DNA of 64,000 nt. Origin: Gammaproteobacteria bacterium. GTDB lineage: Bacteria; Pseudomonadota; Gammaproteobacteria; Steroidobacterales; Steroidobacteraceae. The stretch spans positions 1 through 64,000 of the forward strand of contig JAHEAZ010000008.1 of the NCBI GenBank assembly GCA_024642505.1, in the 5' to 3' direction. The notes under the pieces are model-generated. The model worked only from the letters and a program-made list of their open reading frames with translations. It did not search any database and was not told where the DNA came from. A program made the position numbers and the translations under genes. Shown piece after piece: positions 9,639-63,785 of the stretch. The number at the start of each line of letters is the position of its first letter. Position 1 is the stretch's first letter.

Positions 9639-10994
9639 TTGGCGACACAGGCATCGAACCCGGCGCTCGCATTGGGTGAAGCGACTCGCTTCACCGAGAT
9701 GCGCTATCGCCTGCTGTTCCTGCTAGGCGCGCTGGTCGTCTACCGGATCGGCACGTTCGTGCCCGTGCCCGGGCTCGACATGGCGGCCATGGCCCGCCTG
9801 TTCGATCAGCAGGAAGGCACCATCCTCGGGCTGTTCAACATGTTCTCGGGTGGAGCGCTGTCGCGCCTGTCCATTTTTGCGATGGGCGTGATGCCCTACA
9901 TCTCGGCTTCGATCATCATCCAGATGATGGCGGTGGTGGTGCCGACGATGACGGCCGTGAAGAAGGAAGGGGAAGCCGGGCGGCGCAAGCTGACCCAGTG
10001 GACCCGTTACTTCACGCTGGTGCTCGCGATCTTCCAGGGCTTCGGGGCGGCGACCGCATTCCAGAACCAGGGCGTGGCGCTCAATCCCGGCTGGCAGTTC
10101 GTCGTGATCGCGGCCATCACGCTGGCGGCTGGCACCATATTCCTCATGTGGCTCGGCGAGCAGATCACCGAGCGCGGCATCGGCAACGGCATCTCGATGA
10201 TCATCCTGTCCGGCATCGTCGCCGGCCTGCCGGCGGCCATCGGCGGCACGCTCGAGCAGGTGCGTTCGGGCGAGATGAACCCGGCCTTCGCCATCCTGCT
10301 GCTGCTGCTGATCGCGGCGGTGACCGCCTTCTGCGTGTTCGTCGAGCGCGCCCAGCGCCGCATCCCGGTCAATTACGCCAAGCGGCAGGTTGGGCGCAAG
10401 ATGTACGCCGGCCAGACCAGCCACCTGCCGTTCAAGATGAACATGTCGGGCGTTATTCCGCCGATCTTCGCCTCGTCGCTGCTGCTGTTCCCGGCTACCC
10501 TGGCCAGCTTCTTTGCCGCTGGCGCGACGGGCGAGGGCACCTGGCAGGTGGCGCTGCAGAATATCGCCGCGTCGCTCGGCTATGGACAGCCGTTGCACAT
10601 CCTGATTTATGCTGCCTTGATCATATTCTTCTGCTTCTTCTACACCGCGCTGGTGTTCAATTCGCGCGAAACGGCGGAGAACCTGAAGAAGGGCGGGGCG
10701 TTCATCCCGGGTATCCGGCCTGGGCAGCAAACGGCCGAGTACATCGACAAGGTACTGACGCGCCTTACGGTCTGGGGCGCGTTGTACGTGACCGGCGTCT
10801 GCCTGTTGCCCGAATTGTTGACCGCCTACGGGCGGGTCCCGTTCTACTTTGGCGGCACGTCGCTGCTGATCCTCGTGGTGGTCGCGATGGACTTCATGGC
10901 GCAGTTACAGGCGCACCTGATGTCCCACCAGTACGAGGGGTTGATGAAGAAGGCGAACCTGCGCGGCTACGGCCGTTCCGGCTCGCCTCGGTGA
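9639..10994 (+). CDS. secY: Preprotein translocase subunit SecY
   Basis: SecY is the channel of the Sec translocon in the inner membrane. The 451-residue product has ten predicted membrane segments, beginning with the TM1 sequence [20 protein letters not shown], and the cytoplasmic loop [13 protein letters not shown]. The start appears to be TTG at 9639, supported by GGCAGGAG 7-8 nt upstream. An internal ATG at 9699 would remove residues preceding TM1. It is translated between rplO and rpmJ as in the standard spc operon. Confidence 0.96.
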
Positions 10995-11024
10995 CGGGCG
11001 ACTTGTCGCCCGGGGAGTGGAGAG

Positions 11025-11141
11025 ATGAAGGTACGTCCATCAGTCAAGAAGATCTGCAAGAACTGCAAGATCGTGCGCCGCCGTGGCGTGGTGCGGGTCA
11101 TCTGTTCGTCGGATGCCCGGCACAAGCAGCGGCAGGGCTGA
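11025..11141 (+). CDS. rpmJ: 50S ribosomal protein L36 (zinc-binding form)
   Basis: This 38-residue frame ([20 protein letters not shown]... ending HKQRQG) is L36. It has the zinc ligands C11, C14, C27 and H33, the C-plus form. GGAG of GGGGAGTGGAG sits just upstream. It follows secY by 30 nt and precedes the promoter of the alpha operon. Confidence 0.95.
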
Positions 11142-11143
11142 CG

Positions 11144-11172
11144 TTGAGGGAATCGTCGTTTTCACGTATACT
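11144..11172 (+). promoter_or_regulatory. Candidate sigma70 promoter of the rpsM-rplQ operon
   Basis: TTGAGG (11144-11149) and TATACT (11167-11172) are separated by exactly 17 nt in the 64-nt gap between rpmJ and rpsM. The predicted start (about 11179) leaves a leader of only about 26 nt before the rpsM ATG. Confidence 0.65.
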
Positions 11173-11205
11173 GCTGCGTTTTCCGCGGCTTAGGGGCAGG
11201 TAGTC

Positions 11206-11586
11206 ATGGCGCGTATCGCCGGCATCAATATCCCGGTGAACAAGCACATCGTCATCGGGCTTACGCATATTTACGGCATCGGCCGTCCAGCGTCCGAGGC
11301 GATCTGCCAGGCAGCCGGCGTTGCGCCGTCGACCAAGGTCCGTGACCTCACGGAAGCCGAGGTCGCCTCGTTGCGTACGGCAGTGGCCAGGCTCACGGTA
11401 GAGGGCGACCTCCGCCGCGAGAACGCCATGGCCATCAAGCGGCTGATGGACCTCGGCGCCTACCGTGGAATCCGTCACCGCAAGGGGCTGCCGGCCCGCG
11501 GCCAGCGGACGCGGACCAACTCGCGCACTCGCAAGGGCCCGCGCCGCGCGGCGATCAAGTCGAAGGCTCAGCCGGGCAAGCGCTGA
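11206..11586 (+). CDS. rpsM: 30S ribosomal protein S13
   Basis: S13 lies at the top of the 30S head and touches P-site tRNA. The 126-residue protein starts [20 protein letters not shown] and has the C-terminal signature [22 protein letters not shown]-like basic tail. It is the first gene of the alpha operon rpsM-rpsK-rpsD-rpoA-rplQ. Confidence 0.97.
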
Positions 11587-11634
11587 TAGCGCCTGACCGC
11601 ATCAATTCCGAACTAATTCCGGGTATCCAGGAAG

Positions 11635-12039
11635 ATGGCTGAAAAGCAGTCAGGGTCGGGCGCCAGCAAGGCCCGCAAGAAATCCAAGCGACAGGTGTCG
11701 GATGGCATTGCGCACATCCACGCCTCGTTCAACAACACGATCGTGACGATCACCGATCGCCAGGGCAATACGTTGTCGTGGGCGACTTCCGGCGGCTCGG
11801 GCTTCCGCGGTTCGCGCAAGAGCACGCCGTTTGCCGCGCAGGTCGCCGCCGAGAAGGCCGGCACCGCCGCGCAGGACTACGGGCTGCGGACGGTCGAGGT
11901 TCGGGTGCGGGGCCCGGGCCCAGGTCGCGAGTCGGCGGTGCGGGCGCTCAACGGCTGCGGTCTCAAGGTGACCAGCATCGAGGACGTCACGCCAATTCCC
12001 CACAACGGTTGCCGCCCGCCCAAGAAGCGGCGCGTCTGA
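11635..12039 (+). CDS. rpsK: 30S ribosomal protein S11
   Basis: S11 is part of the 30S platform near the Shine-Dalgarno duplex. The 134-residue product has [18 protein letters not shown], the [14 protein letters not shown] segment, and the C-terminal [18 protein letters not shown] signature. It is 48 nt after rpsM. Confidence 0.97.
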
Positions 12040-58372: not shown

Positions 58373-59695
58373 CTAGATTCCGCGCGTTACCAGGTCCCGC
58401 AGCGTCTCGCCCGCGGTGCGCTCCCGGATCGATGCTTCGACTGCGTCAGCGACTGCATCCGCGTCCGGTTCAGTCCGGGCCCGAGCGAGCAACCAGGATT
58501 CGTATTGCTGCTCGTCGCGCACGGCGGTCAGGATGGCATGCATGCCGATCTGGTCCAGTGCCCGGCCCGGTACCAGCTGTTCCCGCTCGGTCGCGATGAT
58601 TATCCCGGCCTTCTCTAGCGAGGCGGAGATCGACGATAGCGCCGAGCCTGGCACCTCCAGCCGTTCCGCCAACGCCTTCAGGTTCCATGCCGGTGCGCCA
58701 TCGATGAACGACTTTCCAATCAGGTACATCATCGACAATGCCAGGCGTTCACGCAGCCGGCTGGTCATCCGGATGTGTGCCTGTCCGGCCCGGAGGTAGC
58801 GCGGGTTCTGTACGTAGAAGGAAAGCTGGGCCCCGATCAGCAGGATGATCCAGCTCAGGTAGACCCAGATCAGGGTGACCAGGAATATCGCGAAGCCGGC
58901 GTATATTGCCACCATGCGGGTCGAGGCGACGACGATCTGCGTGAATAATGCGCCGCTCGCGGCCCACAACACGCCCGCCACGACCCCGCCGACGGCAGCT
59001 GCCTTGGCGTGGACGCGCGTATTGGGGATGAACATGTAAAAGAACGAAAAGACCGCGGTTACGACGATATAGGGGGCCGCGCGCCCGAGTCCGGCGAGCA
59101 TCGAACCGAAAGGTTCATGGGAGGCGAGCCATCGCGCAAAGCGCAAGTCGGCCAGTGCGCCGAACAGGCCCAGGATCACCACGAGGAAAATTGGTCCTAC
59201 GACCATCAGGCTCAGGTACTCGCTCACCCGGCGAACGATGCTGCGTGGCTGCTCGACGTGCCAGGCAAAGTTGAAGCTCTCCTCGATCTTCTGCACGGTA
59301 CTGATCACCGTGTAGAGCAGCAATCCGAGGCCGACTGATCCCAGTACGCCGCTCCGGGTGTTGTCCACGAAGGCGATCAGTTGCGCAGTCATGCCGGCGG
59401 CCTGATAACCAATCGGCTTCAGGAACTCGTAAATGACCGGCTCCAGTTCGTGATGCAGGCCAAGCCCCTTGAGGACAGCAAAACCGAAGGCCACCAGCGG
59501 CACGATCGACAGCAACGTCGTGTAAACGAGCCCCATGGCGCGCAGGTTGAGTTCGCCTTGCCACAAGTCGCGCAGCAACGCGTAGGGATAGCGCAACAGC
59601 GTAAGCAGCTTCTGCAGCAGTGGGAGTTGCGGCTGGTGCTCGGGCTCGAACAGCAACAGCTCGAGCCTGTGGATCGGATCGATCTTGACCGTCAT
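58373..59695 (-). CDS. YihY/virulence factor BrkB-family membrane protein
   Basis: The 440-residue product has an N-terminal segment that includes PYALLRDLWQGELNLRAMGLVYTTLLS (BrkB signature), about six membrane helices to residue 300, and a cytoplasmic C-terminal winged-helix-like region (ALAERLEVPGSALSSISASLEKAGII). Older databases call this RNase BN in error. The function is uncertain. It converges with pmbA and is divergent from the BtuF-like gene. Confidence 0.85.
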   Translation of the reverse strand: MTVKIDPIHRLELLLFEPEHQPQLPLLQKLLTLLRYPYALLRDLWQGELNLRAMGLVYTTLLSIVPLVAFGFAVLKGLGLHHELEPVIYEFLKPIGYQAAGMTAQLIAFVDNTRSGVLGSVGLGLLLYTVISTVQKIEESFNFAWHVEQPRSIVRRVSEYLSLMVVGPIFLVVILGLFGALADLRFARWLASHEPFGSMLAGLGRAAPYIVVTAVFSFFYMFIPNTRVHAKAAAVGGVVAGVLWAASGALFTQIVVASTRMVAIYAGFAIFLVTLIWVYLSWIILLIGAQLSFYVQNPRYLRAGQAHIRMTSRLRERLALSMMYLIGKSFIDGAPAWNLKALAERLEVPGSALSSISASLEKAGIIIATEREQLVPGRALDQIGMHAILTAVRDEQQYESWLLARARTEPDADAVADAVEASIRERTAGETLRDLVTRGI

Positions 59696-59778
59696 GTGAG
59701 CAGCGTGGCACAGGCACCGACCGGCCGCAATTCGTCCGCACCGCGCCTGGTTTTACGGCTGCTGCAGGGGCCGGTACA

Positions 59779-60624
59779 GTGGCAGCTCGCCATGAATATG
59801 GGACTGTCACCCTGAGCGGCCAATTCCCCTCACGGATCGTCTGCCTGACCGAGGAGACCACCGAGACCCTCTACCTGCTCGGCCAGGAGTGGCGCATCGT
59901 CGGCATCTCGGGTTTCACCGTCCGCCCGGCGCGCGCCCGTCGCGAGAAACCCAAGGTATCGGCCTTCACCAGCGCGAAATTCGACAGGATCCTCGCGCTG
60001 GAACCCGACTTGGTGCTGGGGTTTTCGGACCTCCAGGCCGATATTGCGACAGAGCTGATTCGCGCCGGGATCGAGGTTCATGTATTCAACCAGCGCAGCG
60101 TCGCTGGTATCTTCCGCATGATTCGCACGCTGGGTGGGATGATCGGCTGCGAGGGCGGGAGCGCAGGGCTCGTGGAGGAACTGCAGCGGGGACTGGACGA
60201 GGTGCGTCGGACCGCGGCCGGGCTCGAGCGCCGGCCACGCATCTATTTCGAGGAATGGGACCAGCCACAGATTTCCTGCATTCGCTGGGTCAGTGAACTG
60301 ATTGGCCTGGCGGGCGGCGAGGAGTGCTTCCCGGAACTCGCTGCCCAGCCGCTCGGGCGCGAGCGGATCATCGCCGATCCGGACGAGGTCGCGCGTCGCG
60401 CGCCCGACATGATCCTGGGTTCGTGGTGCGGGAAGAAATTCCGGCCGGAGAAGGTGGCTGCGCGACCGGGTTGGGATGGCATTCCTGCCGTGCGCGACGG
60501 TGAGCTGCACGAGGTCAAGTCGTCGATCATTCTGCAACCCGGGCCCGCCGCCCTGACTGATGGTGTGAAGGAGATCAGCCGGCTGATCCAGGCCTGGCGA
60601 CAGCGGCGAGGGAGAGCCGCATGA
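59779..60624 (+). CDS. BtuF-like substrate-binding domain protein without signal peptide
   Basis: The 281-residue product has the periplasmic-binding fold of the cobalamin/iron type (FPSRIVCLTEETTETLYLLG, LEPDLVLGFSDLQADIATELIR, and a C-terminal SSIILQPGPAALTDGVKEISRLI). No signal peptide is seen: the GTG start (AGGGG 9 nt upstream) is followed directly by the domain, and no upstream in-frame start is available. It may therefore act in the cytoplasm. It overlaps a ClC gene by 4 nt and no ABC permease is adjacent. Ligand unknown. Confidence 0.75.
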   Translation: MAARHEYGTVTLSGQFPSRIVCLTEETTETLYLLGQEWRIVGISGFTVRPARARREKPKVSAFTSAKFDRILALEPDLVLGFSDLQADIATELIRAGIEVHVFNQRSVAGIFRMIRTLGGMIGCEGGSAGLVEELQRGLDEVRRTAAGLERRPRIYFEEWDQPQISCIRWVSELIGLAGGEECFPELAAQPLGRERIIADPDEVARRAPDMILGSWCGKKFRPEKVAARPGWDGIPAVRDGELHEVKSSIILQPGPAALTDGVKEISRLIQAWRQRRGRAA

Positions 60625-61946
60625 ACGAGCGAGCTGGCGCGATCTTTTCTCGTGAGCAGTGGCAGGAACGTGGTGGCACCTGGATCGCCGGAGCCGCCGT
60701 CGGCGCTGCTGCAGTCGGTTATGCCTGGTTGGTGGATGCCGCCACCCAGCTCATGCACGCCGGCCTGGGCCTGTCACTATGGTTGCCGCTTGCGGTTACG
60801 CCGCTGGCGTTCGCAGCGATCGCGGCGGTGACCAGCCGGTACTTCCCGGCAGCCGCAGGCAGCGGCATACCGAATGCGATGGCGGCCTTGCGAGCGCAGT
60901 CGACCGTAACAGTTGAGCGCCTGCTGGACCTGCGGATGATTGCCGCCCGAATCGTGTTGTCTTCGGCGGCGGTACTCTGCGGCGCGTCGGTCGGCCGCGA
61001 AGGACCGACGGTTCACGTGGGCGCAGCCATCGCATATCGTTTCGGCCGGTCAATGCCGGGTCACTCGGAGCCGTCGCGCCGACGCGCGCTTATCCTTGCG
61101 GGCGGAGCCGCGGGCATCGCGGCTGCGTTCAACACGCCGCTGGCAGGCATCGTTTTCGCCATCGAGGAGCTTGCCCGCTCCTATGAAGCGCGCGCCAGCG
61201 GCACGACGCTGGTCGCGGTGCTGATTGCCGGCGTGGTATCGCTGGCGATAGTTGGCGACTACACCTACTTCGGCCATCCGGAGCTGACGACGACGCCCCG
61301 CATGCTCCTGTTCCCTGCCGCAGTGGTTGGACTTGGCGGCGGACTGCTGGGTGGGGCCTTTGCGCGCGGATTGCTGTCAATGAGCGCCGAAGCGAGCGTG
61401 CTTGCTGGCTGGCGGCGCAGCCGGCCGGTGATCTTCGCACTGGCCTGTGGGCTGGTCGTCGCCCTCGCGGGTCTGCTGTCGGGAGGATCGGCGCTGGGTA
61501 CCGGCTATGAGCCGGCGCGCGCGATCCTGGAGGGCGGCACCACCTCGCTTGCCTTCGTGCCGGCCAAGTTCCTGGCGACCCTCAGTTCGATGCTGGCCGG
61601 AATTCCCGGCGGGCTGTTCGCTCCGTCGCTGGCCATCGGCGCGGGGCTCGGCCAGCTGGCCGGCAACCTGCCCGGCCTGACGGATGTCCCGGGGTTGGCG
61701 GTGATCGGTACCTGCGCCTACCTCACCGGAGCGACCCAGGCGCCGATGACGGCATTCATCATTGTCATGGAGATGACCGGGCTGCACGAGCTGGTGCTTC
61801 CCCTCATGGTAGCTGCACTGGTCTCGGCTGGCGCGTCGCGACTGATCAGCGGGTCGCTCTACCATGGGCTAGCCCAGCGCCTGGTCGAGGATCAGAGAGC
61901 GGCAGTACCGCAGCAGCAGGGGGAACGGCCGGTATCAGGCGGTTAG
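60621..61946 (+). CDS. ClC-family chloride channel/antiporter
   Basis: The 441-residue product has the ClC selectivity motifs GSGIP (80-84), GREGP (125-129) with gating Glu127, and GLFAP (331-335). A Glu at the position of ClC-ec1 Glu203 (IEEL, 181-184) favours a H+/Cl- antiporter over a channel. It begins with ATGA overlap behind the BtuF-like gene and converges with purC with a 12-bp overlap. Confidence 0.92.
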   Translation: MNERAGAIFSREQWQERGGTWIAGAAVGAAAVGYAWLVDAATQLMHAGLGLSLWLPLAVTPLAFAAIAAVTSRYFPAAAGSGIPNAMAALRAQSTVTVERLLDLRMIAARIVLSSAAVLCGASVGREGPTVHVGAAIAYRFGRSMPGHSEPSRRRALILAGGAAGIAAAFNTPLAGIVFAIEELARSYEARASGTTLVAVLIAGVVSLAIVGDYTYFGHPELTTTPRMLLFPAAVVGLGGGLLGGAFARGLLSMSAEASVLAGWRRSRPVIFALACGLVVALAGLLSGGSALGTGYEPARAILEGGTTSLAFVPAKFLATLSSMLAGIPGGLFAPSLAIGAGLGQLAGNLPGLTDVPGLAVIGTCAYLTGATQAPMTAFIIVMEMTGLHELVLPLMVAALVSAGASRLISGSLYHGLAQRLVEDQRAAVPQQQGERPVSGG

Positions 61947-62822
61947 GCGGCGCAGCGCCTCGGCGTACTTGGCCGCGGTGCGCTCTATGACATGCGGCGG
62001 TAGCCGCGGGCCCGGCGCCTTCTTGTCCCAGTCGAGCGTTTCCAGGTAGTCGCGGACGTACTGCTTGTCGAACGAAGGGGGGCTCGACCCCGGCTTCCAG
62101 GTGTCGACCGGCCAGAATCGCGAGGAATCTGGCGTCACTGCCTCATCCATCAACACGATCTGTCCAGCCTCGTTAAGACCGAACTCAAACTTGGTGTCGG
62201 CGATGATGAGGCCGCGCCCGAGCGCGTATTCCGCCGCGAACGCATAGAGCGCCAGGGACAGTTGACGAACCTGAATGGCGATGCCTTCGCCCAGAATGGT
62301 GGCCACCTCCGCGAAGCTCACATTCTCGTCGTGCGCCCCGGCGGCGGCCTTGCTGGAGGGCGTGAACAGCGGCTGTGGCAGCTTGTCGGCCATGACCAGA
62401 CCCGACGGCAGCGCAATACCGCAGATGGCACGGCGCTGCTGGTAATCCTTCCAGCCCGAGCCAATCAGGTAGCCTCGAACGACGGCCTCGACCGGCAGCG
62501 GCTGGAGCCGCTTGACGACCACGGCACGACCCTTGAGCATCGCCAGTTCCTCCCGGTCGTGGACGAACGCGTCGAGCGTGTAGTCCGTGAGATGGTTCGG
62601 GACGATGTGCCGGGTCCTTTCGAACCAGAAATTGGAGATCTGCGTCAGTACCCGTCCCTTGCCGGGAATCGGGTCCGGGAGCACCACATCGAAGGCCGAC
62701 AACCGGTCGGTTGCGACAATCATCATGTGGGTGGCGTCGAGCGCATAGATGTCCCTGACCTTTCCCTGATGGATGCGCTGCAATCCCTTCAGTTGGGTCT
62801 CGAAAACCGTATCCGGGTTCAT
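61935..62822 (-). CDS. purC: SAICAR synthase
   Basis: PurC joins aspartate to CAIR in purine synthesis. The 295-residue product starts MNPDTVFETQLKGLQRIHQGKVRDIY, with RLSAFDVVLPDPIPGKGR, the ATP region VVVKRLQPLPVEAVVRGYLIGSG, and DTKFEFGL. The start at 62822 has AGGA about 10 nt upstream; an upstream open frame extends to 63083. Larger than E. coli PurC (237), it resembles the longer class. Confidence 0.95.
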   Translation of the reverse strand: MNPDTVFETQLKGLQRIHQGKVRDIYALDATHMMIVATDRLSAFDVVLPDPIPGKGRVLTQISNFWFERTRHIVPNHLTDYTLDAFVHDREELAMLKGRAVVVKRLQPLPVEAVVRGYLIGSGWKDYQQRRAICGIALPSGLVMADKLPQPLFTPSSKAAAGAHDENVSFAEVATILGEGIAIQVRQLSLALYAFAAEYALGRGLIIADTKFEFGLNEAGQIVLMDEAVTPDSSRFWPVDTWKPGSSPPSFDKQYVRDYLETLDWDKKAPGPRLPPHVIERTAAKYAEALRRLTA

Positions 62823-62948
62823 GGCGGGATTCCTGTCAGGCATCCGGCGGAAAGGCGAAGCCTTGATAACATACGCCCGCTGTGCAGGCTGGGGCGCCGA
62901 AGGCTGCGGATTGTTGCAGTCCGCATGAGAGTTGGTCAAGGAACAGGC

Positions 62949-63785
62949 ATGAAGTGGATCGGCAAGGCCGTGGGTGCTGTGCTGGGGCTGGCGACTGGTC
63001 TTGGCCCGGTGGGCGCGGCCATCGGACTGGTGATTGGTCACGCCTACGACGAGCGCATGGAATCGGACGACGGCGCGAGGCACGGCGCTGACCTTGCTGC
63101 TGTGCGTTCCGTGTTCTTTCGCAATTCATTCAAGGTCATGGGTTTTGTCGCCAAGGCCGACGGCCGCGTGTCTGAGCGTGAGATTGCTGCAGCACGCGAA
63201 ATCTTCCGGCAATTCCGGCTTGACGAGCTACAGCGACGTGAGGCGATCGACTGTTTTACGGCCGGCAAGGCGCCGGGATTCAGCCTCGATGACGCACTCG
63301 ACGAACTCGTGCACGTATGTGGAGGCCGGCGCGATCTGCTGCGGATGTTTCTGGAGGTTGAAATGCGTGCCGCGCTGCTCGGCAACGGCATGCAGGGTCC
63401 GACGCGGAGCCTGCTGATGCACATCTGCCGGCGGCTGGGTGTTTCCGGCCTGGAATTCGCCCACCTCGAGGCGCTGCTACGCCTGCAGGGTTACGGAGCC
63501 GCATACGCTGGCGCGGGTCCCGGTGCCGGCGGCCATTGGCAGGGCGAAGCCCGCACTTCGCCGCGCGCCGAGCCGCTCAGCGAGGCTTATGAAGTGCTCG
63601 AGGTTCCGGACAGCGCTACGGATGCCGAAGTCAAGCGCGCGTACCGCCGGCAGATGAGCCAGAATCACCCCGACAAGCTCGTATCTCGCGGGCTACCCGA
63701 GTCGATGCTGGAAATCGCCAAGCAGAAGACCCAGACAATCCAGGCAGCCTACGAAAAGATACGTGTTGCGCGCGGCATGCGCTAA
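62949..63785 (+). CDS. djlA: Co-chaperone DjlA (TerB + DnaJ)
   Basis: The 278-residue product has an N-terminal membrane segment ([23 protein letters not shown], about residues 8-30), a TerB-type helical domain (about 50-180), and a C-terminal J domain with HPD at 240-242. DjlA stimulates DnaK at the inner membrane. The start at 62949 ([10 protein letters not shown]) is set by family; the open frame upstream overlaps purC. Confidence 0.93.

Follow-up and report, generated by a model that had tools for sequence, protein, structure and literature searches.

Proteins of the PF01497 fold are normally periplasmic, and the class III binding-protein fold binds its ligand at the loops that follow the strands. 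Vitamin B12 is a scarce, large and reactive cofactor for which animals use dedicated trafficking proteins, and in animals CblC (MMACHC) processes the upper ligand of cobalamin. To our knowledge, how B12 is kept and moved between uptake, adenosylation and enzymes within bacterial cells is poorly known. In the parts of PMC10481361 and PMC10356863 considered here, intracellular cobalamin delivery is ascribed to the MeaB/MMAA G-protein chaperone and an adenosyltransferase, a task resembling the one proposed below. However, MeaB/MMAA is a PF03308 GTPase, whereas the protein described here belongs to PF01497 and is not a GTPase. BtuF, represented by structures from Escherichia coli (1n2z/1n4a) and Vibrio cholerae (5ysc), shares the PF01497 fold with this protein over nearly the full length (Z 24.2–24.4), can also be aligned to it by sequence profile, and is likewise linked to B12 genes. 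What is known is the PF01497 fold family, some members of which are named cobalamin-binding; what appears to be new is a signal-less, B12-linked variant predicted to be cytosolic. Among titles and abstract openings in the literature, we found no account of a signal-less or cytosolic BtuF; two comparative genomics studies of B12 from 2003 may mention the gene.

The gene lies in the window, by which we mean the whole stretch of 64,000 nucleotides analyzed, with the following layout between positions 58373 and 63083.

58373..59695, minus strand: YihY/BrkB-family membrane protein gene (yihY; PF03631), the divergent upstream neighbour of the PF01497 gene
59766..59770, plus strand: possible ribosome-binding sequence AGGGG, 5' of the GTG start (a reading of the sequence only)
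59779..60624, plus strand: signal-less BtuF-fold (PF01497) gene for a predicted cytosolic corrinoid-binding protein (Pfam, AF2 model, B12 operons of homologs)
60621..60624, plus strand: ATGA, the 4-nt overlap of the PF01497-gene stop and the ClC start (ORF coordinates, sequence)
60621..61946, plus strand: ClC-type antiporter gene, a lineage-specific neighbour (Pfam PF00654, glutamate alignment)
61935..63083, minus strand: purC ORF, the convergent downstream neighbour (NF010568, 2.3e-133 over ORF residues 92–381)

The ORF at 59779–60624 encodes 281 amino acids from a GTG start and matches PF01497 (Peripla_BP_2) with an E-value of 6e-44; its score of 150.6 bits against a gathering cut-off of 27.5 places the protein in the family. 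The ORF at 60621–61946 encodes 441 amino acids and matches PF00654 (Voltage_CLC; 1.1e-82). The overlap of 4 nt between the two genes, part of the original prediction, was confirmed as ATGA, and the pair is more than a chance reading, given the long ORFs, the strong family matches and the conserved relatives. The true start of purC is probably inside its ORF, at about 62830 by estimate; the 3' ends of the ClC and purC genes share 12 nt (61935–61946) in convergent orientation. No Rfam riboswitch was matched anywhere in the 64-kb window, and an ORF and Pfam scan of the window found neither btuC nor btuD next to the PF01497 gene.

An AF2 model of the window protein, computed from an alignment of 47 sequences (46 of them chosen by hand from the gathered homologs), had a mean pLDDT of 93.3 and a pTM of 0.89. 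Compared with E. coli BtuF (1n2z), it gave a Z of 24.4 and an rmsd of 3.0 over 241 residues, in agreement with the class III fold. The protein differs from BtuF in several respects: the identity is 17–19%, the score with the BtuF equivalog model NF002894 is 30.3 bits against a cut-off of 234, the family lacks a signal, and its members coexist with a signal-bearing BtuF in 11 examined loci. We also tried to read the ligand from the fold, which failed, as heme-, iron- and B12-binding proteins fall within about 2 Z units; among the top PDB matches, Z was 26.1 for a protein deposited as 'iron-binding', 24.8 for heme-binding proteins and 24.4 for E. coli BtuF, and the best sequence match is likewise deposited as iron-binding. 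In 104 sequences (104 of the 106 loci introduced below, leaving out the partial L029 and L103 (X)), 52 residues are invariant, including C22, C217, E158, E159, W160, N104 and R106, and many of them appear, in the model, to lie in loops after strands, at the ends of strands or close to them in both lobes. The presumed lid residue W66 of E. coli BtuF, located by means of the W66F structure entry's title, corresponds to F63 of the window protein, where the aromatic character is kept (F in 102 and Y in 2 of the 104 sequences). E72 of E. coli BtuF, presumably a contact of the BtuC permease, aligns with family position 69, occupied by D in 72, E in 14, G in 14 and A in 4 of the 104. Plasmid homologs of the same subfamily in Xanthomonas sacchari (66% identity) and Methylobacterium aquaticum (56%) are named 'cobalamin-binding protein' at NCBI, and a third, from Ideonella, is labelled 'ABC transporter substrate-binding protein'; the former name looks like an automatic annotation and gives no role or location.

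Homologous loci were compared in two samples. The first comprised 106 loci with homologs more than 55% identical, from the 59 nearest genomes and the best 80 of a genome collection (the listed loci); the window was counted once and some genomes twice (e.g. L005/L034 and L014/L046). The second was an even sample of the phylum, in which the PF01497 gene was detected at an E-value of 1e-60 in 33 out of 397 genomes; these 33 phylum loci exclude the window, include both copies of G451 and extend at most about 8 kb to each side. Among named records, the family occurs in gamma-, beta- and alphaproteobacteria. Members were also seen in L060, L062 and L069, whose contigs bear the labels Gemmatimonadetes, Thermoflexales and Acidobacteria; since the tree joins L060 and L069 to proteobacterial sequences, these contigs may have been mis-binned or the gene transferred.

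The absence of an export signal, as originally predicted, held for the window protein and, as far as tested, for the family. Signals were assessed by hydropathy with a cut-off of 1.6, used in place of a dedicated signal predictor, and no signal peptide was detected in the window protein, for which hydropathy over 19 residues reached at most 0.41 in segments beginning within residues 1–22. Upstream of GTG 59779, a further 30 codons are open and contain no other ATG, GTG or TTG. We looked in the relatives for an upstream start with a signal peptide, the observation that would have spoken against the prediction. A start codon lies 3–18 codons before query position 19 (RIVCLTEE) in 105/106 listed and 31/33 phylum loci, that is, in 136/139 overall; in the exceptions the distance is 38 codons, 26 codons and, for L278, a start that could not be placed. 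An in-frame stop occurs within 30 codons upstream in 52/106 listed and 11/33 phylum loci. When all upstream starts were tried, a hydrophobic stretch above the cut-off appeared only in L048 and L068 (2/139), each of which also has a near start codon. The BtuF genes of the same clusters served as a positive control: 10 of the 11 passed the cut-off, and the eleventh (L258) narrowly missed it (1.55 vs 1.6). A missed signal peptide was rejected in view of the near starts, the upstream in-frame stops and the hydropathy of all upstream starts taken together. As far as tested, the missing signal is an old, family-wide property and not a quirk of the window copy.

We then considered the ClC neighbour, to which the original prediction had coupled the binding protein. 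In the window ClC, E127 (GREGP) aligns with E148 and E183 (IEE) with E203 of E. coli ClcA (ClC-ec1), and S81 (GSGIP) and Y414 also align with the corresponding Ser/Tyr positions, the E. coli numbers being counted from the alignment. We take E148 and E203 to be the gating and proton glutamates, and assume the known roles of the Ser and Tyr likewise. The prediction of a ClC gene with both glutamates was therefore borne out, and Cl-/H+ exchange is predicted from sequence; the score with the ClcA model (180 bits against a cut-off of 350) assigns the protein to the ClC family and leaves it short of a ClcA equivalog. The coupling itself did not survive the search for the gene pair in other genomes. 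A ClC gene lies beside the PF01497 gene in only 2/106 listed loci, the window (G000) and G005 of the same genus, whose ClC is 80% identical, carries GSGIP, GREGP and IEE at identical positions and has the same ATGA junction. The pair was found in 0/33 phylum loci, and no PF01497 relative was detected at 21 ClC loci of other genomes (2.6–4.3 kb each, three of them re-examined at 6–13 kb). Relatives of the window ClC at an E-value of 1e-60 occur in 20/296 genomes of the order, its own genome included. We accordingly rejected the coupling, since the pair is not conserved across homologous loci.

The surroundings of the gene in relatives point in the same direction. A divergent yihY directly upstream of the PF01497 gene was found in 43/106 listed loci, and purC follows the gene directly, with no ClC between, in 29/106, one of them L007 (G004, same genus); 51/106 have that yihY, or purC or djlA anywhere in the locus. 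The usual layout in the window's own clade is the single gene flanked by yihY and purC. Because many relatives show the order yihY, PF01497 gene, purC without a ClC, the latter is regarded as a lineage-specific addition, most likely inserted between purC and the PF01497 gene in some members of a single genus. In G002 and G004, whose branches are only partly resolved in the tree, the ClC may have been lost or may never have been present.

In part of its members, the family is recurrently linked to B12 genes. In the phylum sample, 12/33 loci carry an Rfam cobalamin riboswitch, and the same 12 have at least one tblastn match to a cob or btu gene. For 11 of these loci, a riboswitch precedes the gene in the same orientation, whereas that of L262 points the other way. 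In L263, btuR is the sole B12 gene; L271 has a single cobT match on the other strand and no riboswitch. Weak gene matches (25–41% identity) were obtained in the distant L265, L272, L277 and L278, each of which has a riboswitch. As a control, we scanned 60 regions of 16.8 kb, set at round coordinates in those 20 genomes of the sample that have long contigs, using a sequence profile trained on the riboswitch matches instead of cmscan; a riboswitch was found in 1/60, a single B12 gene match in 2/60 and two matches in 0/60. The enrichment of riboswitches (12/33 vs 1/60) has a one-sided Fisher P of 8.4e-6, in which the independence of the loci is overstated owing to shared ancestry.

Among the listed loci, 13/106 have a B12 context, nine by riboswitch (L072, L073, L078, L090, L092, L099, L105, L110 and L111) and four by genes (L026, L066, L083 and L091). 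In either sample, a single weak B12 gene match (L056, L062, L065 and L271) was not scored. Rfam searches with cmscan covered 45/106 listed loci and all 33 phylum loci, and in three subsets of the former detected the riboswitch in 6/13 (a subset picked after the gene layouts had been viewed), 3/14 and 0/18. The trained profile, the sole scan for the remaining loci, was positive in 21/139 and added no new locus. No B12 context was detected in 93/106 listed and 21/33 phylum loci, including the window's own clade. On a tree of 134/139 sequences (leaving out L005, L009, L020, L029 and L103), in which bootstrap support is unsettled, the B12 label changes 12 times, with at least 8 changes forced by well-supported branches, and one clade of 16 rows, mostly Burkholderiales, holds 12/25 B12-linked rows. 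Co-occurrence with riboswitches across the order was uninformative, as 55/59 genomes carry one (CobU was found in 7/59), and neither the pdxH neighbours in Lysobacteraceae nor the loci with peroxiredoxin or AMP-binding genes offered a functional lead.

The linked loci differ in arrangement. In Burkholderiales, the order is riboswitch, btuB, the gene, cobU, btuF (with a signal), btuC and btuD, with variations; some Burkholderiales have the family member within the btuC/btuD operon, but a second PF01497 gene adjoins btuC. In L072, L073, L090 and L110 the order is riboswitch, btuB, btuR, cobB, the gene, cbiB, a cobC-like aminotransferase gene, cobQ, cobU and cobT, with a bluB-like gene nearby (summarized also as cobB, gene, bluB, cbiB); these neighbours were identified by Pfam in L072 and by tblastn in the other three. 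In L066 (1–4246), a single short contig, the gene lies directly between pduO and a partial icmF in which B12-binding, MeaB and mutase domains are fused, a genomic tie to the MeaB system; in L091 and the Ideonella plasmid, too, icmF precedes the gene in the same orientation. In L277, a TonB receptor, a second PF01497 gene, FecCD and an ATPase precede the gene. L026 (G023), from the window's own family, has cobB before and cobQ after the gene, and a riboswitch in the same orientation precedes it by 2.7 kb. In six loci of betaproteobacterial type (L111, L249, L251, L252, L258 and L259), the strand opposite the cobalamin riboswitch carries a 6S RNA gene no more than 1 kb away.

A second, signal-bearing BtuF was present in the same cluster in 11/11 loci examined. 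For the 11 loci with both proteins, the mean pairwise identity of the domains was 79.5% for the signal-less copy vs 66.5% for BtuF (64.3% with untrimmed N-termini); the higher conservation of the signal-less copy fits a protein with cytosolic partners.

In the host genome, 3.1 Mb in size and 96.5% complete, a single cobalamin riboswitch was detected, on contig C65, ahead of genes for a TonB receptor and a PduO-type adenosyltransferase. A second PF01497 protein with a hydrophobic, signal-like N-terminus is encoded 3.8 kb from this riboswitch (L135, 11934–12845), and an MFS transporter gene (10692–11933) comes directly after it on the same strand. The genome also encodes MetH and one FecCD permease, the latter on a different contig from this PF01497/MFS pair, and CobU was not found in it. 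The host probably takes up and uses B12. The window gene is unlikely to be the host's periplasmic BtuF, because the host has a separate PF01497 gene near the riboswitch whose product has a signal-like N-terminus. About 10% of the organisms that take up B12, including Xanthomonas axonopodis, are reported to lack BtuFCD (PMC2667541, in the part considered here); Lysobacteraceae carry the signal-less BtuF-like protein, a possible link to that lack.

Taken together, we favour the reading that the window gene encodes a cytosolic corrinoid-binding protein of the BtuF fold that holds or hands over B12, with a probability of roughly two in three. We infer the corrinoid binding, the cytosolic location in vivo and the direction of the hand-over alike; the genes surrounding the relatives' copies speak for a cobalamin-type ligand, and the binding itself stays a prediction. 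Cobalamin would arrive via BtuB and BtuCDF, or from the late cob biosynthetic steps, and the signal-less protein would bind the corrinoid (cobalamin itself or, for example, its precursor cobinamide) in the cytosol. The bound corrinoid may be protected or stored and then passed to a BtuR/PduO adenosyltransferase and to a mutase or MetH. The protein would serve to carry or buffer the corrinoid, rather than being a subunit of a transporter, and the ClC, added in one lineage, would share at most a transcript or a translational junction with the PF01497 gene.

Other explanations were weighed against this reading. Instead of carrying the corrinoid, the protein might process it, by removing or changing the upper ligand or by reducing cobalt before adenosylation, as CblC does with the upper ligand. 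The 52 invariant residues, including C22 and C217, at or near strand ends in the model, would suit an active site of this kind, as would the positions of the gene between pduO and icmF in L066 and beside cobB and near btuR in L072. However, these residues could all serve tight binding or contact with a partner, and we know of no enzyme within PF01497; we therefore consider a processing enzyme unlikely, though worth keeping in view. In a fuller form of the idea, the protein would be a bacterial counterpart of CblC that receives imported cobalamin, processes its upper ligand with C22/C217 and delivers it to an adenosyltransferase and a mutase. Such CblC-like processing is possible, the evidence being the invariant cysteines and the gene neighbours, but the complete scheme is a doubtful one. 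A cytosolic protein for heme or an iron chelate, with a secondary location in B12 operons, would be in keeping with fold scores level with that of BtuF and with the iron-binding best sequence match, but the recurrent linkage to cobalamin riboswitches and cob/btu genes in several different arrangements speaks against it, and we give this alternative little credence.

Very improbable is a periplasmic binding protein that serves an ABC importer, its signal having escaped detection or its export following another route. The operons with btuC and btuD in Burkholderiales would fit this role, yet the starts are located right before the domain, in-frame stops close off the upstream region in about half of the listed loci, the 11 clusters examined contain a second signal-like PF01497 gene, and a FecCD permease was not matched in most loci. 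Least credible is the original idea, in which a sensor in the cytosol would gate or regulate the ClC antiporter in response to a ligand: the ATGA overlap and the key ClC motifs are indeed present in both genomes with the pair, but these are 2 out of 106, the phylum sample adds none, the 21 ClC loci examined in other genomes are devoid of PF01497 relatives, and the window-type ClC is itself sparse in the order.

These results also advise caution in annotation, as a PF01497 match in a B12 operon is not necessarily the binding protein of a transporter. If the CblC-like reading were true, a periplasmic binding protein would have been relocated to the cell interior and recruited for B12 trafficking. 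The signal-less BtuF-fold family, with its members in riboswitch operons and near adenosyltransferases and AdoCbl mutases, represents a concrete candidate for the intracellular handling of B12.
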